Positions 37,206 through 48,684 of a stretch of 64,000 nucleotides of DNA are shown here, in pieces. The DNA is from Candidatus Thorarchaeota archaeon. Its GTDB lineage: Archaea > Asgardarchaeota > Thorarchaeia > Thorarchaeales > Thorarchaeaceae. Made by a program: the position numbers and the translations under genes. Under the pieces are notes generated by a model. The model did not search any database. It was not told the DNA's origin and worked only from the letters and a program-made list of their open reading frames with translations. Every line of letters begins with the position of its first letter. The stretch's first letter is position 1. Location of the stretch: NCBI GenBank assembly GCA_021498125.1, contig JAIZWL010000001.1, positions 62,001-126,000 on the forward strand. The letters run 5' to 3'.

Positions 37206-37762
37206 TATTGGCTTTGGCTTCTCTCTTCAGCTTCTTTCTGCTGTTGTAGAATTTGTTTCACCTTGTGTTTCAGTTGCGCCTTTAATCGGATTGTATCATG
37301 ATCGAGGCCAAAATAGTCTGCGAATAGTGTTGTAGTGCGAAGTAATTTTGAACGCCCCTCCGGTGTGGACTCGATGAACTTTTTCTCAGAGAGTTCTTTG
37401 ACATGTTCGTACACGTGAGTGCCTCTCTGTGTCACGAGTTCTGATTGGAGAATTGGTTGTTTTAGTGCGATGAATACCAATGTCTGGAGTGTTGCAAAGG
37501 AGAGCAATCCTCCCGGAATCAATTTGCCCACACGCGGTGTCAGTTCGGGTCTTAACTGGAGAACGTATCGACTTCTTGGAAGTTCTACAACCTCTAATGC
37601 GCCCTCCCTCTTATGATATTCAAACTCAAGATCCTTCAGAAGCTTCTGAGTTGTTGAGACCGCCTTGCCTATAATCTCGGCAAGTTCCTCAATTGTCAAT
37701 GGTCTCCCGGCCACGTATAGGGCGGCTTCTAACGTTAGCATGTCCTCCTCCACTTGCATCAC
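37202..37762 (-). CDS. scpB: Segregation and condensation protein B
   Basis: 186-residue kleisin-interacting protein with two winged-helix units: LTIEELAEIIGKAVSTTQKLLKDLEFEYHKREGALEVVE (about 18-55) and LATLQTLVFIALKQPILQSELVTQRGTHVYEHVKEL (about 90-125), typical of ScpB. It binds ScpA and SMC in the condensin complex. Start overlaps the scpA stop by 4 bp; third gene of the smc-scpA-scpB unit. Confidence 0.92.
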   Translation of the reverse strand: MMQVEEDMLTLEAALYVAGRPLTIEELAEIIGKAVSTTQKLLKDLEFEYHKREGALEVVELPRSRYVLQLRPELTPRVGKLIPGGLLSFATLQTLVFIALKQPILQSELVTQRGTHVYEHVKELSEKKFIESTPEGRSKLLRTTTLFADYFGLDHDTIRLKAQLKHKVKQILQQQKEAEERSQSQY

Positions 37763-38478
37763 CCACTTGTGGTAACTTCTACTGTCGTTTCCTCTTCCTC
37801 ATCGTCTTGCGGAGGTTCAAGTAGTTTTATCCAAATCACGTTATCATCATCCATCCAGAGATCCACATAAGCTCTGGCGAAGAGATGCAGTAGAGCAAAT
37901 AGAATTCTGACGACCTCACGGCGTGACGGTTCAACAAGAATGTCTGTGAATTTTACGACCTGTCCAATCTTCAGGATGTCCGTGAGATCCTGGTACACCT
38001 CAGTAATTGTTTCTTCAACATCAGCCCTAGTGGCGTCCATCTTGAATGATACTGGATCTACCGATGACCTTGTGCGTCGTTTCACAGGAACTGGTCGTCG
38101 TCTCACTCCTTTAGTCAAGACTTTGTCCATTGCAACAAGAAGTTCTTGAAGTGTAACACGTCTGTTAGCAAGTCGGAACGGGGGTCGTATGAGCGGTATC
38201 TCGAAGTCTTCTTCCTCGTCGTCGTCCTCATCTGGTGGTAAAATCCCCAGCTCAACCAAGTCACGAGTCTTTTTCATGAATATGACTGAGGCCGAATAGA
38301 GCGCGTTGCCCGAAATCCGGAAATCGATATCGCCCATCTGCCGCATCTCTTGAAGGAATCCTGATACTAGTTTACCCACATCAACATTCCATGGTTCGAT
38401 CTTATCGAGCTGAAGCACATCAGTGAGGAGAATATACGGTGGTTCTATCCAGAATGGATGCTGTTCGTCATCGTTCAT
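37759..38478 (-). CDS. scpA: Segregation and condensation protein A (kleisin)
   Basis: 239-residue kleisin linking the two SMC heads. The N-terminal helical part (LLTDVLQLDKIEPWNVDVGKLV, MGDIDFRISGNALYSASVIFMKKT) and the C-terminal winged helix (VVRILFALLHLFARAYVDLWMDDDNVIWIKLL) are both recognisable, separated by an acidic linker (DEDDDEEEDFE-like) and a basic patch. Overlaps smc by 4 bp and scpB by 4 bp. Confidence 0.92.
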   Translation of the reverse strand: MNDDEQHPFWIEPPYILLTDVLQLDKIEPWNVDVGKLVSGFLQEMRQMGDIDFRISGNALYSASVIFMKKTRDLVELGILPPDEDDDEEEDFEIPLIRPPFRLANRRVTLQELLVAMDKVLTKGVRRRPVPVKRRTRSSVDPVSFKMDATRADVEETITEVYQDLTDILKIGQVVKFTDILVEPSRREVVRILFALLHLFARAYVDLWMDDDNVIWIKLLEPPQDDEEEETTVEVTTSG

Positions 38479-41400
38479 GCAGCCCCCGCCACCTCCTCTA
38501 AATCTACAGCAACAATCCGTGAGATCCCGTCTTGATTTGTCACACCCACCAAGCGATCCGCCTTTCTCACGGTGACATCTCGAAGTGACACAACAATGAA
38601 CTGCGATGACTTTGACATTTCAGAAATAAGTAGAGCAACATTATGAGCATTTACATCATCAAGTGCCGCATCAATCTCATCAAAGACATAGAAGCTAGCA
38701 GGGCTGTGTAATTGAATTGCAAAGATGAGGGCCAGCCCTGTTAAGGTCTTCTCCCCACCACTCATTGCATCAAGGGAGACGATGTCCTTCCCACGTGGTT
38801 TTGATCGTACGGTGATTCCCCCCATAAGTGGATGCTCGGGGTTTTCCAACATCAGGCTTGCCTCTCCACCCGGGGAGAGTTTGGCGAAGACCTTTGAGAA
38901 ATTATCTGCTATCTCATTATAGACCTGAAGGAACTTCTGAGTCTTCTCTCTCTCAAGTTCTTCCATGAACTTGAGTATCTCTTTATGTTCCTCCTCCAGT
39001 TTTGTCTTCTTTTCAACAATTTCTTCATATCGTTCTTTTTCCGCGTCATAGTCTGTAAGTGCTTTCAGGTTGACAGGACCCATTGCCTCTAATTCACGGT
39101 TTAACGCTCTGAGTTTTTCTTCGAGGTCTTCTATCTCTTTGTATGTCAATTCTCTCATCTTGTCGCGTTTGGCAAGTTCATCATCAGCATCGGCCATCTG
39201 TTTTAATTCAGCAAGCGATGCTATGATCTCGTTCTGTAATCTTGACTGTTCTGACTGTAGTCTATATACTGCCTTTTCATTTGAAGTCTGGGCATCTCGG
39301 ATCTCCTCGTGACGGAATCGTATATTGCGTGCCTCCTCCTTCAAATGTATCTGGCGGACACGGTGATCTTTCACAGTTTCCTCTATTTTCTCTCTCCGTT
39401 CACGGAGAACTTCGGCCTCTTGTTCCTTACTGGCAAGATGTGTTTCTAGCTGTCTGACCTCCGCCTCAAGACTGGGGATAACTGCTGAGAGTGCTTGGAT
39501 ACGTAGTTCAATCTCATCGGCCTTTGGCTTTAGTCTCTCATCTAAGGCGACTCTCAGAGCAGAAATCTCTTTTTGAATATCATCCCTCTTTTTCTTTAGA
39601 TGTTCTGCTACGCCAGTAAGGTTGCGAATATCTTGCGAAATCTGAGATGCTTTAGATGTGGCTAATTGCTCATTGCACTCATCTCTCTCAGCACGAATTC
39701 TCTCTCTCTTTTCGGTAAACTCCTCATCTCTCTTGCGTAGATCCGTGATCTGGCTCTCAAGTGCCTTAATCTGGATCGTTGCAGACTCAACCTTTCTTTG
39801 GAGTTGCTTCTCTTTCATCTCCAAGTTTTTCAGGGTTTCTTCGTGATTCTCGAGCTGAATTCCTGATCGGTAGTTTACCTTTGATAAATCTTGGATCTCT
39901 CGTTCCAACTGTTTTTTGGATTTTAGAAGTTCTTGGCGTTTTGCGATCAGGCTCTCGAGAATCTCCTCAAGCCCTTGTAGCTTTTCTCTTATCTCGGGGC
40001 TCTTGTCTTCAATTTTTAGAGAGAGGCCCGCCGATCCTCGTTGGTAATGCCCTCCACTAATCAGTCCGGATCTCTCAACAAGGTCGCCTTCAAGAGACAC
40101 CGCACGCCATCCCTTAAAGCCCATTTTCTTGGCGGTGCTAAAGTCTTCAGTCACGATAGTATTAGAAAATACAAATTCGAAAGCGGCCTGAACTTTTGGA
40201 TTGAATGTTACAAGATCCATTGCATAGCCTATAACTCTCTCATCATCAGGGATGTGTCCAGGTGATCTCGTCTTGATCCGATTTAGTGGTATGAATGTCG
40301 CTCGTCCTGCATGGTCGCGTTTCAGTATCTCAATACAGCGAGTAGCGACATCTTCGTCCTCAACAACAATATGAGTAAGTCGATTACCGCCAGCAATCTC
40401 AAGTGCTACAGCATATTCAGGGTCGATTGTACCAAGTTCCGCAACAGTTCCATAGATGCCCTCGACCTCTCCTGTGTCCCTCATTTTAAGGACTCTCGCC
40501 ACCGCCCTCTTTCGTCGGAGAAATGCCTCTTCAGCCTCCTTTAGGGCGTCTCGTCTGGCTTGCATCTTGATGAGTTCATCTCTTGTTGCCCTGACGATTC
40601 CCTCAGACTCGCTGATCTCTTCTTGTAAAGTTGACAATTGCCTGTCTATATCCTCAACCTCCAGGCGTTTGGATGCCTCAAGTTCTCTATTCTGCTGTAA
40701 CTTCTCTCGTTCTCTGGGAACATCTATTCTGAGTTTTTCGAGTTGCTCCCTTGTCTTCACGAGACTCTCTTCGGCATCGCTCATTTCTTCATAGGCGATT
40801 CCGAGTTCTCTCTCATCACTCTTAATTGAGGAACGTATCTCCGAAACGCTCTCATCAAGAGAGATCATCTCACTGTTGAGGGTCTGCAATCTTCTCTGCA
40901 GTTCATAGTAATTGTCTTGTTCTTTGTCTAGGCTCTCCTGAAGCATTGTAATCTGTTGTTCTACCTTTTGTAATTCTGTCTCTGTCTCTTCTAAACGAGC
41001 AGTATGTTCTTGGATGGACTCATTGTTCCTCTTGATTTGGTCTTTTACCGACTTCTGCGCTTCAACGAGTTCATCCAATTCTCGAATCTTCGCTTCGTGA
41101 TCCTCTCTCGCACGTTCGAGATCACTTTGCACATGGCCTACCGCTGCAGAGACCACCCCTAATTGTTCGGAGATTCTACTAGAGTCGCCACCAGTAATAC
41201 GATCAATCTCTTGGTCGATTGACTCTATCTCCTCCTCAACATCCTTGCTCTTCTCTTCGAGTTCGTCAAGTTCACGTCTTAATCTCTCGGCTTCTTCAGC
41301 ACGTTCGGTCAGGGTCTCACTAATCGTTTCAATTCGATTCTGTGATTTGATTATCTTCCATGCAATGATGTCGATTTTGATGGTCTTCATCTGATTTTGG

Positions 41401-42065
41401 ATGTTTGTATATCGCATTGCATCTTCTCTTTCTTCTTCAAGCTTCTCTAGATGCCGTCGTCTCTCTTGGAGTTGAGTATCTACTTTGGAGAGATTAGCCT
41501 CGCTCTCTGAGAGTTTCTTCAGGGCTCGTTCTTTCTGTTCATCGTATGCTGAGATTCCTGCGATCTCCTCGATTAGTTTGCGTCTATCATTTGGACTGAC
41601 TTTGACCATCTGGGCGATCTCGCCTTGTAATACAAGGTTGTAGCCGTTAGGATCCACCCCAATACTCCCAAGTAGATCTAGGACTGCCGATCTTGTCACG
41701 ACCCGTCCATTTACTCGACAGACTGACTTGCCTGTTTCATCAAGTTCTCTCTCAATGACTACCTTATCCGCATCAACAGCCAATTTTCTATCTTTGTTGT
41801 TGAAGTGGAGTTGAACGACTGCCGATTTTGCCTTCGGAGGCATTCCTGGTTTAGGCGGAGAATAGAGCAGGTCTGAAAAGACACTGGCTCGGAGGGTCTT
41901 TGCACTAAGCTGCCCCAATACAAAGAGTAGTGCATCGATGACATTTGATTTGCCTGAGCCATTGGGACCGACTATGCATGTAAATCCAGGATCGAGCTTG
42001 ATAGTAACAGTATCTCGCCCGAATGATTTGAATCCTTTACAGACGAGTTTGTCTATGTATACCAC
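38475..42065 (-). CDS. smc: Chromosome segregation protein SMC
   Basis: 1196-residue SMC ATPase of prokaryotic length. Walker A GPNGSGKSN near 33-41; long coiled coils on both sides of a hinge (about 520-680, including GLISGGHYQRG); C-loop DAMSGGEKTL; Walker B FYVFDEIDAALDD near 1120. Forms condensin with ScpA and ScpB, all three encoded in overlapping order, which argues for one transcript starting upstream of 42065. A 13-bp interrupted palindrome is found in its upstream region. Confidence 0.97.
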   Translation of the reverse strand: MVYIDKLVCKGFKSFGRDTVTIKLDPGFTCIVGPNGSGKSNVIDALLFVLGQLSAKTLRASVFSDLLYSPPKPGMPPKAKSAVVQLHFNNKDRKLAVDADKVVIERELDETGKSVCRVNGRVVTRSAVLDLLGSIGVDPNGYNLVLQGEIAQMVKVSPNDRRKLIEEIAGISAYDEQKERALKKLSESEANLSKVDTQLQERRRHLEKLEEEREDAMRYTNIQNQMKTIKIDIIAWKIIKSQNRIETISETLTERAEEAERLRRELDELEEKSKDVEEEIESIDQEIDRITGGDSSRISEQLGVVSAAVGHVQSDLERAREDHEAKIRELDELVEAQKSVKDQIKRNNESIQEHTARLEETETELQKVEQQITMLQESLDKEQDNYYELQRRLQTLNSEMISLDESVSEIRSSIKSDERELGIAYEEMSDAEESLVKTREQLEKLRIDVPREREKLQQNRELEASKRLEVEDIDRQLSTLQEEISESEGIVRATRDELIKMQARRDALKEAEEAFLRRKRAVARVLKMRDTGEVEGIYGTVAELGTIDPEYAVALEIAGGNRLTHIVVEDEDVATRCIEILKRDHAGRATFIPLNRIKTRSPGHIPDDERVIGYAMDLVTFNPKVQAAFEFVFSNTIVTEDFSTAKKMGFKGWRAVSLEGDLVERSGLISGGHYQRGSAGLSLKIEDKSPEIREKLQGLEEILESLIAKRQELLKSKKQLEREIQDLSKVNYRSGIQLENHEETLKNLEMKEKQLQRKVESATIQIKALESQITDLRKRDEEFTEKRERIRAERDECNEQLATSKASQISQDIRNLTGVAEHLKKKRDDIQKEISALRVALDERLKPKADEIELRIQALSAVIPSLEAEVRQLETHLASKEQEAEVLRERREKIEETVKDHRVRQIHLKEEARNIRFRHEEIRDAQTSNEKAVYRLQSEQSRLQNEIIASLAELKQMADADDELAKRDKMRELTYKEIEDLEEKLRALNRELEAMGPVNLKALTDYDAEKERYEEIVEKKTKLEEEHKEILKFMEELEREKTQKFLQVYNEIADNFSKVFAKLSPGGEASLMLENPEHPLMGGITVRSKPRGKDIVSLDAMSGGEKTLTGLALIFAIQLHSPASFYVFDEIDAALDDVNAHNVALLISEMSKSSQFIVVSLRDVTVRKADRLVGVTNQDGISRIVAVDLEEVAGAA

Positions 42066-42238: not shown

Positions 42239-42607
42239 CTAGTCGCCTACCATATTAAGCAATGCTCTTCTCAGAGCTATTCTGATAAGACCCATAGCTT
42301 CTCTTGCAGTTTCTCCTGCAATGCCTGCAAGAACCATTTCTACATCCCCAAGAATCACAACTAGGCCTTTTTCTGAAGCGATTGTGACCTCCTTGAGTCC
42401 TCCTTGTTCTAGACCTGAAACGAGCTGTGCGGAGTTTCCGGCGATCTTGACTGCAAGCTTTGCCACTTCCGTCTGATTCACATCTTCAGTCACAGTATGT
42501 CCAAAAATTACCTTCCCTTTTGCATCACATACGACGATTCCCTGAATATCTGCGTTTGCCGCCATTACTTCGGCCACAATATTTTCAATTTTTGCTTTAT
42601 CAACCAT
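42239..42607 (-). CDS. Roadblock/LC7 domain protein (1 of 4)
   Basis: 122 residues, one Roadblock/LC7 domain: an N-terminal helix (KIENIVAEVMA), the IQGIVVCDAKGKVIFGHTV hairpin, a central helix with LAVKIAGNSAQLVSGLEQGGLKEVTIASEKGLVVIL-type order, and a final helix. Such proteins dimerise and act as scaffolds or GTPase regulators (MglB, Ragulator, dynein LC7). GGAGG precedes the ATG. It is divergent from the Sec23/24-like gene by 178 bp that contains TATA-like boxes (TTATATATATG near 42664), suggesting shared control. Confidence 0.88.
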   Translation of the reverse strand: MVDKAKIENIVAEVMAANADIQGIVVCDAKGKVIFGHTVTEDVNQTEVAKLAVKIAGNSAQLVSGLEQGGLKEVTIASEKGLVVILGDVEMVLAGIAGETAREAMGLIRIALRRALLNMVGD

Positions 42608-42785
42608 TTCGCCAGTCCTCCGGGCTTCCGCAATAAACGATGTTATTATTCAAACGACTATCCTGTTATATATATGTCACCGTTTACCGTTATGACACGA
42701 TAATACTCTATGTGTAGTGATTCTCTATTTTGTCTTCTGCACGATTCATTTAATAGTGTTGGCTGAAAATACCCTCTGATTACGC

Positions 42786-44420
42786 ATGCCGCTTTTTAAA
42801 CCGTCATCAAAGAGATTTCCCAAGTCCTCATCAATGGCAAAAGACATTCCCTACGTTCTTCGAGTTGAGTTTCGTGACTTAGAACGTGGCGCTTCAACTA
42901 TTGTTGGGAAACCTATTGCATGTTTCAAATGTAATGCATATCTGACAGACCCCTCTCAGATCATAGATGATGAGGCAACTGGGAAGCATTTCATCTGCCC
43001 CTTCTGTGGGACTTTGAATATTATTGAGGGCGAAGTTCTTCTTGCGGGAGATGATGCAGATATTGTTCTTAGTTCTCCACCGGATACGTCCACTGACACA
43101 TCAGTTCATCCATACACAGGAAATTCTTTCTTGGCCGTTCTCGATCTGTCCGGTTCTATGAGTGGGGCTTCGCTTGCCGCCGTTAAGCGTAGTCTTACAT
43201 CATCAGTAGATAGTCTGGTTGCCAACTCTCCAGATACCGTGTTTGGCCTGATCGAGTTCGAGTCTTCAGTCAGATATCGTAATATCGGCAGTGGCACTAT
43301 ACTTGAACTTCCGTCCGATTCTTTCTTTAATTTTAACACAATAGTTTCGAATGCAGAGCAACTTGTGGATGCCATCAAACTCATGGCTGTTGGACCCAAT
43401 GCTCCCTCTATCAAGAGATATATCAAATCGCTCTCTGCACGAGGTATCACAGCTCTTGGCCCTGCTATGGTCTTTGCATACGTTATAGCCAAACATCACC
43501 ATGTAAGTCGTATCGTCTTATTGACTGATGGATTGGCAAATCTTGGCATCGGCTCATTTGAAGGATTCCAAGCAATCCCTCCAAAGGAGTTTTACTTGAG
43601 TATAGCTAAGCAGTTTTTCGAAGTTGGTACGACTGTGGATGTTGTTGGAATCGCTTCATCATCTGGGCTTGAGATGAAGACACTTGGAATTCTCCCAGAT
43701 ACAACTAATGGGCAGATGTATTATGTCACTCCGAATGAGCTAGATTTGAGTATGTCCGAATTAGCTGGTACCGAACTACTTGGTCATGATGTAGAAATCA
43801 GAATAATTACTCCCTCTGGTGTGACCATCCGCGATGCCTCTGGTCTCTCGCGCGTAGCCTCTGACCTCTTGAAAAAGAAGCAAGCCACAAAGATTGGGTC
43901 TGTTAGCAGTGATCACGAGATCTGTATTGAGGTCGCCCCTGAAGGGACGCTTGAGGCCGATGAGGTTCCTATCCAAGTACAGGTCGAATATACTGATGCT
44001 GATGGAGCAAGGCGTGTTAGGGCAATGACAACAACTTTACCAGTAGCGCATGACGAGTCTGAGTTGATATCGGAAATGGATCCTACTGTCAGTGCCACTT
44101 TTGTAACCCAAAAAGCAGGAGAGGCATCTTTTGATGGTTCAAGCAAAGAGGGCCGAGATATCATTACGACATTTCGAGCGGCACTGAAAAAGCGCGCCAA
44201 ATCTGCACCCGAGGCAGTTCGTCGAGATCTGGAAGAAGTTGACTTGGTTCTCTCCGAAGAAGAAGCGGAGATGGGTAAAATCGAGGAAGAACTGGAAATG
44301 GCACCTCCTGCGGCTCAAGCCCGTGTTGCAGATGCTGCATTCACTGCGCGATATAAACAGAAACGGCGTACTTCTAAGGAGCTCTTCAAGAAAAGTAAGA
44401 AGAAGAGCAAATCCAAATAG
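42786..44420 (+). CDS. Sec23/24-like protein: CxxC zinc finger plus vWA domain
   Basis: 544 residues. The zinc finger CFKC...CPFC (Cys46, 49, 71, 74) has Sec23-like surroundings (CxxCxAYL, then CPFCGTLN). The vWA trunk begins about 112 with an intact MIDAS DLSGSMSG (Asp120-Ser124), then LLTDGLANLG. A beta-sandwich-like region (about 385-425) and helical segment (about 425-510) follow, ending in a Lys-rich tail. This order recalls the COPII coat proteins Sec23/Sec24, minus the gelsolin domain. Sec23/24-like proteins have been reported from Thorarchaeota. Neighbours are Roadblock and MglA-like genes. A coat function is inference; a generic zinc-finger vWA protein is the alternative. Confidence 0.75.
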   Translation: MPLFKPSSKRFPKSSSMAKDIPYVLRVEFRDLERGASTIVGKPIACFKCNAYLTDPSQIIDDEATGKHFICPFCGTLNIIEGEVLLAGDDADIVLSSPPDTSTDTSVHPYTGNSFLAVLDLSGSMSGASLAAVKRSLTSSVDSLVANSPDTVFGLIEFESSVRYRNIGSGTILELPSDSFFNFNTIVSNAEQLVDAIKLMAVGPNAPSIKRYIKSLSARGITALGPAMVFAYVIAKHHHVSRIVLLTDGLANLGIGSFEGFQAIPPKEFYLSIAKQFFEVGTTVDVVGIASSSGLEMKTLGILPDTTNGQMYYVTPNELDLSMSELAGTELLGHDVEIRIITPSGVTIRDASGLSRVASDLLKKKQATKIGSVSSDHEICIEVAPEGTLEADEVPIQVQVEYTDADGARRVRAMTTTLPVAHDESELISEMDPTVSATFVTQKAGEASFDGSSKEGRDIITTFRAALKKRAKSAPEAVRRDLEEVDLVLSEEEAEMGKIEEELEMAPPAAQARVADAAFTARYKQKRRTSKELFKKSKKKSKSK

Positions 44421-44549
44421 ATCTCTCCTTCCCCGTAGAGCTCAAAATGCGCAAAATATGTACCTTTTATTGTGGACATTGCCACAAGTCTAAAATAGCC
44501 CTGCGTGGGGGAGAAAATACTGACATAAACTATAGCAGGGGATCAACGA

Positions 44550-44849
44550 TTGGTAAGCCAAGAGAAGCTTCAAACGATTTTATCACGGCTCAAATCACAA
44601 GAGGGAGTACGTGGTATTGTTGTTACTAATATGGAAGGACTTCCCTTGAGTAGCGACCTTGATCCCGAGACTACTGAGATAGTTGCTGCTATTGTCACCT
44701 CTCTCGTTGGAAAGGCCCTAGAGGCAGTACGCGAACTTCGAGAGGGGTCGTTGTCATTCCTAACTCTTGACACCACTAAGGGTCAAATCAATATCGCACC
44801 TGACGTGAAAGAGGGCCTAATCTTAGTAGTCCTCAAGAGTACAACTTGA
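44550..44849 (+). CDS. Roadblock/LC7 domain protein (2 of 4)
   Basis: 99 residues, a minimal Roadblock domain: LQTILSRLKSQEGVRGIVVTNMEGLPLSS, helix VAAIVTSLVGKALEAVRELREG, then LSFLTLDTTKGQINIAPD and a short last strand. Start is TTG at 44550 with GGGGAT upstream. It follows the Sec23/24-like gene by 129 bp and is 13 bp from the next Roadblock gene, so these two are probably co-transcribed. Confidence 0.88.
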   Translation: MVSQEKLQTILSRLKSQEGVRGIVVTNMEGLPLSSDLDPETTEIVAAIVTSLVGKALEAVRELREGSLSFLTLDTTKGQINIAPDVKEGLILVVLKSTT

Positions 44850-44862
44850 AGGGGTATGTTTC

Positions 44863-45330
44863 ATGAGCGATCCTAAGGTTTTCGACAAGATCCTCACCGA
44901 TATCATCAGACAAGATCGAGGCATTCGACGTGTGATTCTCGTCGATAAGACGGGTCTTACAATTGCACATGTATCGCGTCTTGCATACTTTGCAGTTGAT
45001 GTGGATAGCATTGGCGCAATTGCAAGTGCAGTATTCTGTGCAAGCGAGGAACAAGGAAAGAATCTACAAATCGGTGATCTTGAGATTGTCACCTCTGAAT
45101 TCTCAGAGGGTAAGATTTTTGCTTCTGCTTGCGGCAAGGGTGTTTTATGCGTCGTATCAGAGGCTCAAGTTAACATAGGTCTGATCCGGCTTGTCATGAA
45201 GAAACAGGGTTCACAGATAGCCGAGGAATTAGACAAGTTCCTGGCAGTAGAACCAATGGCGCCTTCAAAGGACAAGGAATTGGATGAAGAGGATCTCAAG
45301 TCTGCACTTGCTGAGCTGGAGCGTGTGTGA
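44863..45330 (+). CDS. Roadblock/LC7 domain protein (3 of 4) with acidic tail
   Basis: 155 residues. The first 120 form a Roadblock domain (VFDKILTDIIRQDRGIRRVILVDKTGLTIAHVS and the IGAIASAVFCASEEQGKNLQIGDLEIV helix-strand unit). The last 35 are charged and helical (KDKELDEEDLKSALAELERV), which could be an interaction arm. ATG follows a GGGG-rich RBS. It is tandem with Roadblock 2; the size difference suggests they could form a heterodimer. Confidence 0.87.
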   Translation: MSDPKVFDKILTDIIRQDRGIRRVILVDKTGLTIAHVSRLAYFAVDVDSIGAIASAVFCASEEQGKNLQIGDLEIVTSEFSEGKIFASACGKGVLCVVSEAQVNIGLIRLVMKKQGSQIAEELDKFLAVEPMAPSKDKELDEEDLKSALAELERV

Positions 45331-45446
45331 GAGTACGCACTCGATCATACAGTTCTAGATGTTCATCGTGTATTATGATGGGACTTTGGACAACGGACAA
45401 AGGCTTTTATGAGACTACCCTTCTAACAGAGTCAACATGTGAGACT

Positions 45447-45468
45447 CAAGTCTTATAGCATAGACTTG
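45447..45468 (+). promoter_or_regulatory. Hairpin in the leader of the MglA-like gene
   Basis: CAAGTCT (45447-45453) pairs with AGACTTG (45462-45468). Outer ACATG and CATGT segments extend the pairing imperfectly to about 19 nt per arm. It lies in the 266-bp gap before the GTPase gene, which otherwise shows nothing. Confidence 0.3.
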
Positions 45469-45596
45469 TGTTGAGCATGTGATGACTGGCGCATCTACAT
45501 GTGTGAGGCCACGAGATGGGTCTGCTTCAAGAACTGACCAGAGTAAATTGCCAAAACAATGCGATTTTGGCCAAGATGTTCCAATGAGGTGTTAGC

Positions 45597-46160
45597 GTGA
45601 GAAAAGACGATAAGGGTCGTATCCATCTTAAGTTGGTCTTTTACGGGCCAAGTCTGGGTGGAAAGACTACAGCATTGCGATGGCTCTATGGTAAAGTGGA
45701 AGGTCTTCAAAAAGGTGAGTTCACTGCAATTGAGGACGAAACCAATCGGACACTGTTCTTTGACTATGTTCCTATGAGCGCTGGTGGTCGAGTTCTTTTT
45801 GATGTCTTTACAGTGGCTGGTCAGAAGCGTCATCGTCATCAACGAAAAGTGGTTTTGCAGGGCGCGGATGGTATTCTGTTCGTGGCCGATTCTTCACCCG
45901 ATCAACGAGAAGAAAATGTTGAGAGCTTTGAAGAATTGAAGATGTTTCTTGGAGATGCATTAGGTCGAGAAATACCGATTGTTGTCATGCTTAACAAACG
46001 TGATCTACCTAATAGGATGTCACGTGATGAAATGTTGGATTTATTAGGGCTTGGCGGTAATGTTCCTATCTACGAAACAATTGCAGTTCAAGGCGTAGGA
46101 GTTAAGAGAGCATTCCAAGCTATAGCAAGAGAGGTAATCTTGAAGCGACTGTACAAGTAG
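45597..46160 (+). CDS. MglA-like small GTPase
   Basis: 187-residue Ras-superfamily GTPase. G1 YGPSLGGKTT (16-25); the DETNRTLFFDYVP stretch (48-59) closely matches the MglA switch region, whose Arg is an intrinsic arginine finger in bacterial MglA; G3 FTVAGQ (71-76, MglA usually TVPGQ); G4 NKRD (133-136). There is no C-terminal prenylation Cys. MglA works with a Roadblock GAP, MglB, to set cell polarity. Roadblock genes on both sides fit this pairing. GTG start. Arf or Rag-type assignments are less likely given the LFFD segment. Confidence 0.88.
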   Translation: MRKDDKGRIHLKLVFYGPSLGGKTTALRWLYGKVEGLQKGEFTAIEDETNRTLFFDYVPMSAGGRVLFDVFTVAGQKRHRHQRKVVLQGADGILFVADSSPDQREENVESFEELKMFLGDALGREIPIVVMLNKRDLPNRMSRDEMLDLLGLGGNVPIYETIAVQGVGVKRAFQAIAREVILKRLYK

Positions 46161-46176
46161 CAATTGGGTGAGCATT

Positions 46177-46548
46177 ATGAGTGAAACTCGTGGAGAAACA
46201 CTTGAAAGCGTGTTAAACGAATTACAGGGTAACATACCTGAGATTGAAGCGGCAGCAATTGTGAGTGTGGAAGGTCTTCCTATTGTGTCTGCACTGCCCG
46301 CTGACGTTGATGAGGCAAAGCTCGCCGCAATAACCGCTGCTATGTTGACTCTTGGTGAAAAGGCATCAGTCGAACTCGGGAAAGGCGAATTAGAACAGGT
46401 TAACGTAAAGGGTGTAGATGGTTGGGTACTGGTCGTACAGGCTGGGCTGAATGCATGTCTTACCGTTTCTACAACTGCCTCTGCAAAAATTGGTCTAGTG
46501 TTCCTTGACATGAAGCGTGCTGCTGAAAAGGTTGCATCAATGATCTAA
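46177..46548 (+). CDS. Roadblock/LC7 domain protein (4 of 4)
   Basis: About 123 residues with a full Roadblock domain: LESVLNELQGNIPEIEAAAIVSVEGLPIVSALP, helix LAAITAAMLTLGEKASVELGKGELEQV and LVVQAGLNACLTVSTTASAKIGLVFLDMKRAAEKV. GGTGA 5 nt before ATG 46177 favours it over the GTG at 46168. It follows the GTPase stop by 16 bp, the classic arrangement of a GTPase and its MglB-like regulator. Confidence 0.9.
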   Translation: MSETRGETLESVLNELQGNIPEIEAAAIVSVEGLPIVSALPADVDEAKLAAITAAMLTLGEKASVELGKGELEQVNVKGVDGWVLVVQAGLNACLTVSTTASAKIGLVFLDMKRAAEKVASMI

Positions 46549-46614: not shown

Positions 46615-47391
46615 GTGGCAAATTTGAATATCACGGGCCCCATGTATCGTCTATACGAATATGTTCTCTATAGGCAATTGAACAAAGAGCGAGCGCCACG
46701 TCATGTGGGAATTATCCTTGATGGGAATCGGAGATATGCCCGTGAGCACGGTCTTGATGTACCTTGGTATGGACATCGGCTAGGTGCGCAAAAGGTCATG
46801 GAAGTCCTCCGAATTCTCTGGGAGGCTGGAGTGAAAGTCTGTACACTCTATGCATTTTCAATGGAGAATTTTCAACGCAGTCGAGATGAAGTTTCAGAGA
46901 TCATGGCCATCGCAAAAGACAAGTTTGCAGATGTGATTGAAAATCCCGATGTGCACAAGCACCGTGTCAAGGTGCAGGCTATAGGCCGTGTTGATCTACT
47001 TCCGGCTGAGGTTCGTGATGCGATTCGATTGGCAGAAGAGGCAACGGCACACTACAATGATCATATCCTTAACGTGGCAATTGGATATTCTGGGCGAACC
47101 GAACTTGTTGATGCTGTACGTGCTATCGCTGAAAAGGCTCGTACAGGGGAAGTAAATCCCTCTGATATCAATGAGACCCTTATCGAAAAGCATCTCTATA
47201 CACACGGTCTCCCCGATCCCGATCTTATCATTCGTACCTCTGGTGAGGAGCGTCTCTCCGGATTCCTTCTATGGCAATCCGCATATTCTGAGCTCTATTT
47301 TGCTCAGATTTACTGGCCAGCTGTGCGACGAATAGATATTTGGCGCGCTTTACGATCATATGAACGGCGATCACGTCGTTTTGGTTCATAG
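46615..47391 (+). CDS. uppS: Cis-prenyltransferase (UppS/DHDDS family)
   Basis: Adds isopentenyl units in cis to form the polyprenyl carrier used for glycan assembly, in archaea a dolichyl-type lipid. Seen: HVGIILDGNRRYAREHG (catalytic Asp), GHRLGAQKVMEVL, TLYAFSMENFQRS, LNVAIGYSGRTELVDAV, PDPDLIIRTSGEERLSGFLLWQSAYSELYF. 258 residues, normal. GTG start. It directly follows the Roadblock/GTPase genes by 66 bp, so lipid-carrier synthesis may be co-expressed with that module. Confidence 0.95.
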   Translation: MANLNITGPMYRLYEYVLYRQLNKERAPRHVGIILDGNRRYAREHGLDVPWYGHRLGAQKVMEVLRILWEAGVKVCTLYAFSMENFQRSRDEVSEIMAIAKDKFADVIENPDVHKHRVKVQAIGRVDLLPAEVRDAIRLAEEATAHYNDHILNVAIGYSGRTELVDAVRAIAEKARTGEVNPSDINETLIEKHLYTHGLPDPDLIIRTSGEERLSGFLLWQSAYSELYFAQIYWPAVRRIDIWRALRSYERRSRRFGS

Positions 47392-47496
47392 TCCTCTTCT
47401 CATGTGACACTTTGGTTTTTAAGTTCAAATTGAGGGCTCAATCTGGCGGTTAATTCCCTGTAAGATGATTGTCTACTAATTGGGAGATTGTACGAC

Positions 47497-48684
47497 TTGG
47501 CACGAACACCACTTGATGTCTATAAGGGTCTGGCGAATGTGCGTCTACCTAAAGATGTGGTTAAACAGATAACTAGGACGGCCAGTAAATTCTCCGATTT
47601 TCATTTTGCCGGGCAGAACATGTCCATGCACTTGTCACGTTTCTTGGCATTGATGTGTAGATTGATTGCATTTTTGGAAGGGCGTCGAGACGTTGAGATC
47701 TCGGATTTACCCGCAGCTATTGATCTACTAGATTATTTTACATCTACCAACAAATGGTGGCAGATGACACGTGACCAACCGGGATTCATCATTAGACCTG
47801 CATCACGAGATCCGCGTGACTTCATCAAGTCTTTAGCACAGATTCGACTGGGCGGTGCCACATTGGGCCGTATTAATTCGGCGACTGAGCGATTTGATTC
47901 TTTTCTTTCCGAACACGAAGTCGGCGGAGCTGAAGAGCGTACCATTCTTCGAGATGCAATGACCTCAAGCTGGGTCCTATTATGTGCAAGCTCCTGTAAG
48001 AACCAAGGACAGACAACAACGACTGAATCCGATTTTGAAATCGCATACGACATTCTACGAATCGTTCTCTTCTATACTCCGCCAATCGACTTCCGTGCGC
48101 TCGAGGCTGTTCGTAGAATAGCTCGTAATCCTCTCTTAGGACGGATTGCATCAGTTGTACTCTCGCCCGGTTTTGAAAAGCAGTTGGAGTCGTCTCCCGC
48201 AGCGCTTTTAGAATTCGAGCACACTCCAGTTGTACGTGGGCGATGCGCAAACTCCTATAGGTTGATCCTTACCAACTCCCTACGTTTTTTGGTGCAGCTC
48301 CGTGCGGCTCTAGACAAGATCGATCGAGTGGAGGCTCAAGAGTATGCCATTATGATTCTTCGGTCTTTGGATCTTCTTGCACCAGTTAATGTTGCACCAA
48401 GCTTCTTTCACGATAACAAGTATGTCACTGCATTGCTAGAGCGTCTCCCCTCTCATCAAGATTTTATTGAGCGTCTTGACCTCATAATGCAACGGATTGA
48501 AACCCTCATTGCCGACGCTCAAAAGAAGGATTTCCTTCTTGCCTACTCTAAATTAGTACCGCGTCTAACCTCTCTGTTGCTATTCCTCTCATTAGCGGCT
48601 TCTAATACGGATGATGAGCTTGATGATCACGACTTGAAGAAAGGCCTAGTACTACTCGGCCGTCTCTTGTCGCAACGTGCCTGA
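47497..48684 (+). CDS. Unrecognised helical protein with internal duplication
   Basis: About 395 residues, soluble and helical, no family recognised. An internal repeat is visible: TPLDVYKGLANVRLP near the start aligns with RDPRDFIKSLAQIRLG about 100 residues later, each followed by an AT(A/S)xFxxF segment and a long helical bundle that resembles the lid region of AAA+ proteins. No Walker motif is present. GGGAG at 47482-47486 sits about 10 nt before TTG 47497, which is preferred over the TTG at 47488. It ends the Sec23/Roadblock/GTPase block and may belong to it. Confidence 0.6.
   Translation: MARTPLDVYKGLANVRLPKDVVKQITRTASKFSDFHFAGQNMSMHLSRFLALMCRLIAFLEGRRDVEISDLPAAIDLLDYFTSTNKWWQMTRDQPGFIIRPASRDPRDFIKSLAQIRLGGATLGRINSATERFDSFLSEHEVGGAEERTILRDAMTSSWVLLCASSCKNQGQTTTTESDFEIAYDILRIVLFYTPPIDFRALEAVRRIARNPLLGRIASVVLSPGFEKQLESSPAALLEFEHTPVVRGRCANSYRLILTNSLRFLVQLRAALDKIDRVEAQEYAIMILRSLDLLAPVNVAPSFFHDNKYVTALLERLPSHQDFIERLDLIMQRIETLIADAQKKDFLLAYSKLVPRLTSLLLFLSLAASNTDDELDDHDLKKGLVLLGRLLSQRA

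Follow-up and report, generated by a model that had tools for sequence, protein, structure and literature searches.

A 64,000-nucleotide stretch of contig JAIZWL010000001.1 (hereafter the window), from a Candidatus Thorarchaeota archaeon whose 3.11-Mb genome belongs to the Thorarchaeia and is 98% complete, contains within 4.3 kb four Roadblock genes, a gene for a small GTPase of the MglA family and a gene for a Sec23/24-like protein. Rbl1 (positions 42239–42607, minus strand), a Roadblock/LC7 gene encoding 122 amino acids, is transcribed divergently from the others. The Sec23/24-like gene (42786–44420, plus strand) encodes a protein of 544 amino acids with a zinc finger, a von Willebrand factor A (vWA) trunk with an intact metal-ion-dependent adhesion site (MIDAS), a beta-sandwich and a predicted helical C-terminus. 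It is followed on the plus strand by Rbl2 (44550–44849), a short Roadblock of the LC7 type with 99 amino acids and no C-terminal helix; Rbl3 (44863–45330), a Roadblock of the MglB/LAMTOR2 type with 155 amino acids; the GTPase (45597–46160; 187 amino acids); and Rbl4 (46168–46548), a Roadblock of 126 amino acids. The original prediction, made from the letters of the window, had named these genes, and all are present; Pfam calls all four Roadblocks above cut-off (Robl_LC7 for Rbl1, Roadblock/LC7 for Rbl2, and both Robl_LC7 and MAPKK1_Int for Rbl3). Only 13 bp separate Rbl2 from Rbl3, and 7 bp the GTPase from Rbl4. The whole genome holds 17 Roadblock domains, and random placement puts four of 16 Roadblock genes inside 4.3 kb in 1 in 200,000 trials. 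Because such a cluster so rarely arises by random placement, and because the arrangement is kept across families, the clustering is not due to chance.

The GTPase, which is flanked by Rbl3 and Rbl4, has several features that place it in the MglA family. First, against the Protein Data Bank (PDB) it matches four MglA structures at 8e-39 to 4e-38, and the next match is at 6e-12. Second, its profile reaches 1e-46 and only MglA structures fall below 1e-20, so that the GTPase neighboring the Sec23/24-like gene is not of the Sar1 type. Third, it has a GPSLGGKTT P-loop, an arginine in switch I (NRTLFFD), a threonine in G3 and the glutamine of an AGQ motif (TVAGQ); residues R51, T72 and Q76 match the switch I arginine, G3 threonine and catalytic glutamine of MglA (alignment A7). 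An intrinsic switch I arginine, a catalytic glutamine and a threonine replacing the aspartate of G3 are given as MglA hallmarks in two studies (PMC4316618, PMC3000849). The MglA switch motif reported in the original prediction is thus borne out, both by the sequence ETNRTLFFD and by the four MglA structures that are the best solved relatives. A second MglA paralog occurs in the Thorarchaeia (L144; G185:C1:2556151-2556690); it is 51–55% identical and lies in frames of 275–391 amino acids, with about 100 extra residues preceding the GTPase domain.

Judged from their sequences, the four Roadblocks are old, separate groups. In a tree of 81 domains, Rbl1 and Rbl3 each form one clade (each 100/99), as does Rbl2 with the exception of a single long-branch row (98/93); the tree rules out a recent tandem duplication. 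No natural fusions of the cluster Roadblocks were found among the frames fetched. Rbl1 constitutes its own orthologous group across Asgard families, and its profile matches PDB entry 9jq8 at 1e-24. Rbl2 matches human DYNLRB1 at 7e-15 in a single-sequence phmmer search, and its profile matches dynein roadblocks at 6e-23 as against 0.003 for LAMTOR2. In the reverse direction, a DYNLRB1 query finds Rbl2 first in this genome (4e-17, with the next match at 1e-6), and within the loci fetched all 87 Asgard frames matched by DYNLRB1 below 1e-5 are Rbl2 by profile. Rbl2, short and without the C-terminal helix, and DYNLRB are therefore reciprocal best matches within the Roadblocks fetched. A LAMTOR identity for Rbl2, which a Pfam match to LAMTOR5 might suggest, is ruled out, as DYNLRB is far closer. 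The AlphaFold model of Rbl3, of modest confidence (predicted local distance difference test, pLDDT, 75), shows a Roadblock with both helices and an extra helix (residues 142–154) on a disordered linker, and its nearest Foldseek matches are LAMTOR2, the MK-D1 'Roadblock3' and MglB; the curated Thermus-type MglB model NF052242 scores 24.8 bits with Rbl3, below its cut-off of 200. The tail motif ELKxALxELEKx is kept in lineages with the cluster and also in f15 and f17 (Asgard families are numbered f1, f2 and so on throughout, f1 being that of the window), whereas SGLDLSDLDxLTPE takes its place in those f19 and f20 genomes that were examined.

The arrangement is conserved well beyond the window. 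Within the Thorarchaeia the order ScpA-SMC / Rbl1 / Sec / Rbl2-Rbl3-GTPase-Rbl4-UPPS is present in almost all genomes whose contigs extend far enough. The outer genes in the window are ScpA (37759–38478; Pfam above cut-off) and SMC (38475–42065, minus strand; named from sequence), which are context outside the claimed unit, and UPPS (46615–47391, plus strand), an undecaprenyl-diphosphate-synthase-like cis-prenyltransferase named from sequence that begins 66 bp behind Rbl4. The Rbl2-Rbl3-GTPase-Rbl4 order, without Sec, recurs in eight other families (f2, f3, f4, f12, f13, f14, f27 and f29, with Rbl4 inverted in f29), partial forms are found in f5–f10, and subsets in Odin, f28 and f15; GTPase orthologs in other Asgard families are about 50–66% identical. 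Rbl1, where detected among the families lacking Sec at the cluster, lies in front and divergent (f3, f4, f12, f14, f27 and f29). The trio most commonly kept is Rbl3-GTPase-Rbl4, UPPS is often kept behind Rbl4, and the SMC/ScpA flank is kept in f12, f14, G161 and Odin. When all window genes were compared with 17 loci of other families, matches were found for Rbl1 in 10, Rbl2 in 16, Rbl3 in 12, the GTPase in 14, Rbl4 in 15 and UPPS in nine, and for neither Sec nor the gene behind UPPS in any; these loci extend no more than about 6 kb in either direction, which left distant genes unable to score, most were picked by their GTPase, which biases its count upward, and one (G161) may be a misplaced contig. 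By profile, Rbl3 is matched in 200 of 228 Asgard genomes, Rbl4 in 219 (some of them paralogs) and Rbl2 in 193. Among 45 high-quality genomes the corresponding numbers are 45, 45 and 41, and the GTPase is found in all 45 at a loose cut-off. Gene order across the Asgards, on which the original prediction turned, is thus kept for Rbl2, Rbl3, the GTPase and Rbl4 beyond the Thorarchaeia, but for Sec only within them.

Some loci call for separate mention. The clusters of G161 (L110) and G167 (L115) resemble those of f14 and f2; the contigs may be contaminants or have been misassigned, so the two clusters were not counted as independent families. In some Thorarchaeia genomes, 2–4 kb of unrelated genes lie between Rbl3 and the GTPase (L073 10741-13034 and L135 7012-10930), and because of these insertions co-transcription is probably not essential there. 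Behind UPPS in the window is a gene (47488–48684, plus strand) for a 398-amino-acid protein that is kept in Thorarchaeia loci reaching that far; it belongs to no Pfam or NCBIfam family, was found at none of the 17 other-family loci and evolves fast (median identity 43%). The genome as a whole also has 30 Arf-model GTPase matches and encodes WD40 proteins.

From the gene content and order, phylum-wide conservation, family relationships and catalytic residues described above, we propose that the conserved object at this locus is probably an ancient Asgard module in which one MglA-family GTPase would have its switch controlled by four distinct Roadblocks, with Sec as an addition specific to the Thorarchaeia. 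Several observations weigh against this. First, Rbl4 is not recovered as a single clade in the tree. Second, the GTPase of f27 has no switch I arginine. Third, a closed 1.42-Mb genome (G175) groups the four Roadblocks at one locus (L146) from which the GTPase is absent, and the cluster genes are dispersed in f11 and f15–f20, so that co-location is not obligatory. Finally, isolated Asgard Roadblocks crystallize as homodimers (PMC10933270; also PDB 9jue), which disfavors obligate heterodimers. We take G175 for Odinarchaeum LCB_4, since its Rbl2 is identical with PDB 7f8f over 94/94 residues, and the structure of the Odin LC7-type Roadblock was solved in a study that names LCB_4 (PMC10933270).

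The Odin locus, together with the dispersal in f11 and f15–f20 and the 30 matches to the Arf GTPase model, could be read as a sign that the four Roadblocks are sited together to serve several of the genome's GTPases, with the MglA-type enzyme as just one client. We regard this as unlikely, given the tight spacing in the window (7 bp between the GTPase and Rbl4, 13 bp between Rbl2 and Rbl3) and the close packing in other families; moreover, Rbl3-GTPase-Rbl4 is the trio most commonly kept, and the GTPase is the most conserved member of the set.

How, then, might one GTPase and four Roadblocks work together? The most likely arrangement, by analogy, is an MglB- or Ragulator-like Roadblock platform controlling the one GTPase, because the arginine finger, glutamine and G3 threonine of MglA itself are all retained in the GTPase. 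In MglA-MglB, an MglB dimer is bound asymmetrically by one GTPase, whose intrinsic arginine and glutamine it brings into order; nucleotide exchange is promoted by the C-terminal helix of one MglB (PMC11016934, PMC4316618). Roadblocks of the LC7 type lack this helix, and the helix of a partner binds in its place (PMC10933270). By the same scheme, ordering of its switches by a Roadblock dimer would allow the GTPase described here to hydrolyze GTP by means of its intrinsic arginine and glutamine. Rbl3, being MglB/LAMTOR2-like, may provide the contact to the GTPase, and its tethered C-terminal helix could either be an MglB-type exchange helix or dock in the open groove of the LC7-type Rbl2, giving an Rbl2/Rbl3 assembly. 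Rbl4 and Rbl1 would be further subunits of a platform, which would hold the GTPase in position, probably at the membrane, and the asymmetric roles of the two MglB subunits may be divided among different Roadblock genes in the Asgards. We think rather improbable a stronger version, in which all four Roadblocks form a single hetero-oligomeric platform that acts as scaffold for one MglA-type GTPase and switches it, and that was a prokaryotic forerunner of Ragulator-type complexes whose Rbl2 gave rise to DYNLRB. The Sec23/24-like protein would be at most an accessory or effector of the module, and possibly a mere neighbor.

As far as sequence and modeled fold go, the vWA protein is Sec23/24-like but short. 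The Pfam matches to Sec23_trunk (5e-8) and Sec23_BS (8e-10) both exceed their cut-offs; that to the Sec23/24 zinc finger, at 21.9 bits, falls just short of its 25-bit cut-off. The Sec23-style CxxC...CxxC noted in the original prediction is real, its cysteines (46, 49 and 71, 74) being invariant in 60 relatives; the canonical DxSGS MIDAS is likewise invariant, and the vWA trunk is present in 60/60 relatives and the beta-sandwich in 58/60 (E≤0.01). Helices are predicted at residues 424–543, where Pfam has no helical-domain match, and the 544-residue chain stops after them, with no Pfam match to a gelsolin-like C-terminal domain. The arginine by which Sec23 acts as a GTPase-activating protein (GAP) sits in the gelsolin domain, and because this domain is missing the protein is filed as Sec23/24-like and not as Sec23. 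The AlphaFold model is confident (pLDDT 89.3; predicted template modeling score 0.89), and its top 46 Foldseek matches in the PDB are all Sec23/24 chains, the best at 1.9e-30; next come a bacterial vWA protein and ArnAB, both near 1e-16 (the first at 1.6e-16). For a profile of the 60 relatives from Asgards, the match to Sec24 reaches 4e-18 and runs from the zinc finger to the start of the helical region, as against 5e-7 for Sec23 and 2e-4 for other vWA proteins. By both fold (1.9e-30 versus 1.6e-16) and profile (4e-18 versus 2e-4), the protein is therefore nearer to Sec23/24 than to generic vWA proteins. Sec23/24 families in Thorarchaeota have been reported earlier, as cited in PMC7997004.

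The best solved archaeal match is ArnAB (8s05; Foldseek 2.7e-16, profile 1.4e-8), and ArnB likewise has a metal-binding MIDAS (PMC12852372), the element that is invariant here. The Sec gene might thus encode an ArnA/ArnB-like signaling protein that acts by protein binding and not by membrane coating, a passenger beside the module; this bears on the Sec gene alone and is compatible with an ancient GTPase/Roadblock module. The far better match to Sec23/24 (2e-30) and the presence of all domains in one chain, in Sec23/24 order, make it doubtful, if conceivable.

Whatever its activity, the Sec gene has a different history from its neighbors. Homologs in f11, f12, f14, f17–f21 and f27 are located away from the cluster, and f12, f14 and f27 have both cluster and Sec, unlinked. 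G183, from the genus of the window, and G222 have an intact cluster with no Sec at the locus, and tblastn found no significant Sec remnant in G222. A single-sequence search found Sec in 18 of the 45 high-quality Asgard genomes, so that its absence elsewhere rests in part on a search in which distant homologs may be missed. Median identity within the Thorarchaeia is 97% for the GTPase, 87% for Rbl3, 84% for Rbl2, 83% for Rbl4, 66% for Rbl1, 63% for SMC and 54% for Sec. Because Sec is absent from the cluster elsewhere, unlinked in f12, f14 and f27, not seen beside the cluster of G183 or G222, and faster-evolving, it is an addition: a weakly constrained, Thorarchaeia-specific insertion between two divergently oriented ancient genes. 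No common conserved partner of Sec was found in other Asgards, only lineage-level neighbors. Four f20 loci (L060, L061, L063 and L065) have a gene for a Ras-family GTPase some 0.75 kb upstream of Sec and on its strand, and three of them carry a redoxin-like gene in the gap; in f17 (L058 7580-8119) a Roadblock gene lies 213 bp upstream, making this a second lineage with Sec beside a Roadblock; and in f11 (L046-L050, L057) an uncharacterized gene of about 356 amino acids, kept in these genomes, precedes Sec. Some Thorarchaeia genomes also have a divergent Sec23/24-like paralog outside the cluster (L036 in G183 and L133 in G221; 38–41% identity).

The original prediction saw in the locus a compact module of coat, GTPase and regulators, possibly for membrane remodeling or polarity, a view that would make it a COPII-like device in which a Sec23/24-like membrane coat is recruited by the GTPase and regulated by the Roadblocks. 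The GTPase and Roadblocks do form a conserved unit, but Sec stands outside it beyond the Thorarchaeia, and a coat module as a single ancient unit is ruled out by the absence of Sec from the cluster in other families. A coat module could draw on the fold, clearly nearest to Sec23/24, on the adjacency kept in nearly all Thorarchaeia genomes, and on the f17 Roadblock gene and the f20 Ras-type GTPases upstream of Sec. We nevertheless consider the coat module very unlikely. The cluster lacks Sec in eight other families, G183 and G222 have the cluster with no Sec beside it, and Sec is unlinked in f12, f14 and f27 and evolves much faster than the core. The COPII analogy itself fails for want of its defining parts, since the Sec protein has no gelsolin/GAP domain and the GTPase is MglA-type, not Sar1/Arf.

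Small GTPases and Roadblocks number in the dozens in Asgard genomes, and genome layout, as a structural study of 2024 concluded, makes their pairing hard to tell (PMC10933270). The cluster names one GTPase and four likely partners, so that this pairing is directly testable. Beyond this, the nearest relative of a dynein light chain found here among the Asgards is assigned to a GTPase module, and the Asgard Sec23/24-like protein is set apart from that module. According to a paper of 2024, the GTPase genes of MK-D1 generally lie outside operons with Roadblock genes, which may fit the families with dispersed genes and not much of the remaining phylum. Bacterial GTPase-Roadblock operons are known (mglBA and the conservons), some with two MglB genes per MglA (PMC4316618, PMC13343842). 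No earlier description of a cluster of one GTPase and four Roadblocks was found in the open-access literature, most subscription papers lying outside the search.

Comparison with known systems shows both likenesses and differences. COPII Sec23 and Sec24 have the nearest fold, with zinc finger, vWA trunk, beta-sandwich and helical region in a single chain, the helices of the Thorarchaeia protein being predicted ones; this protein differs in having no gelsolin domain or GAP arginine region, in its canonical MIDAS, and in being unlinked to the module outside the Thorarchaeia. Sulfolobus ArnA-ArnB shares the vWA domain, beta-sandwich, helical bundle, MIDAS and zinc finger, but consists of two chains with a forkhead-associated (FHA) domain, and its fold match is weaker than that of Sec23/24. 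The dynein light chain DYNLRB is the reciprocal best match of Rbl2 and shares its length and lack of a C-terminal helix, whereas the neighbor of Rbl2 is a GTPase; we know of no dynein in these archaea. Eukaryotic Ragulator-Rag (LAMTOR1-5) likewise has four Roadblocks of the RB and LC7 types around small GTPases, paired as LAMTOR2/3 and LAMTOR4/5 heterodimers on LAMTOR1, and there are weak Pfam matches to LAMTOR5 for Rbl2 and to the LAMTOR3 model (MAPKK1_Int) for Rbl3. However, the GTPase here is MglA-type, with 187 amino acids and without the C-terminal Roadblock domain of the Rags, and Rbl2 is nearer to DYNLRB than to any LAMTOR; no counterpart of LAMTOR1 is known to us, although no search for one was made. 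Actinobacterial conservons (CvnA-D) also combine an MglA-family GTPase and an MglB-type Roadblock in an operon, but have a histidine kinase, CvnC and one Roadblock, where the Asgard cluster has neither kinase nor CvnC and four Roadblocks. Finally, bacterial MglA-MglB of Thermus and Myxococcus has the same GTPase family, with its own arginine finger and glutamine, the G3 threonine and a neighboring Roadblock regulator; RomR and Frz partners are not seen here, and in place of the one MglB homodimer the Asgard cluster has four different Roadblocks.

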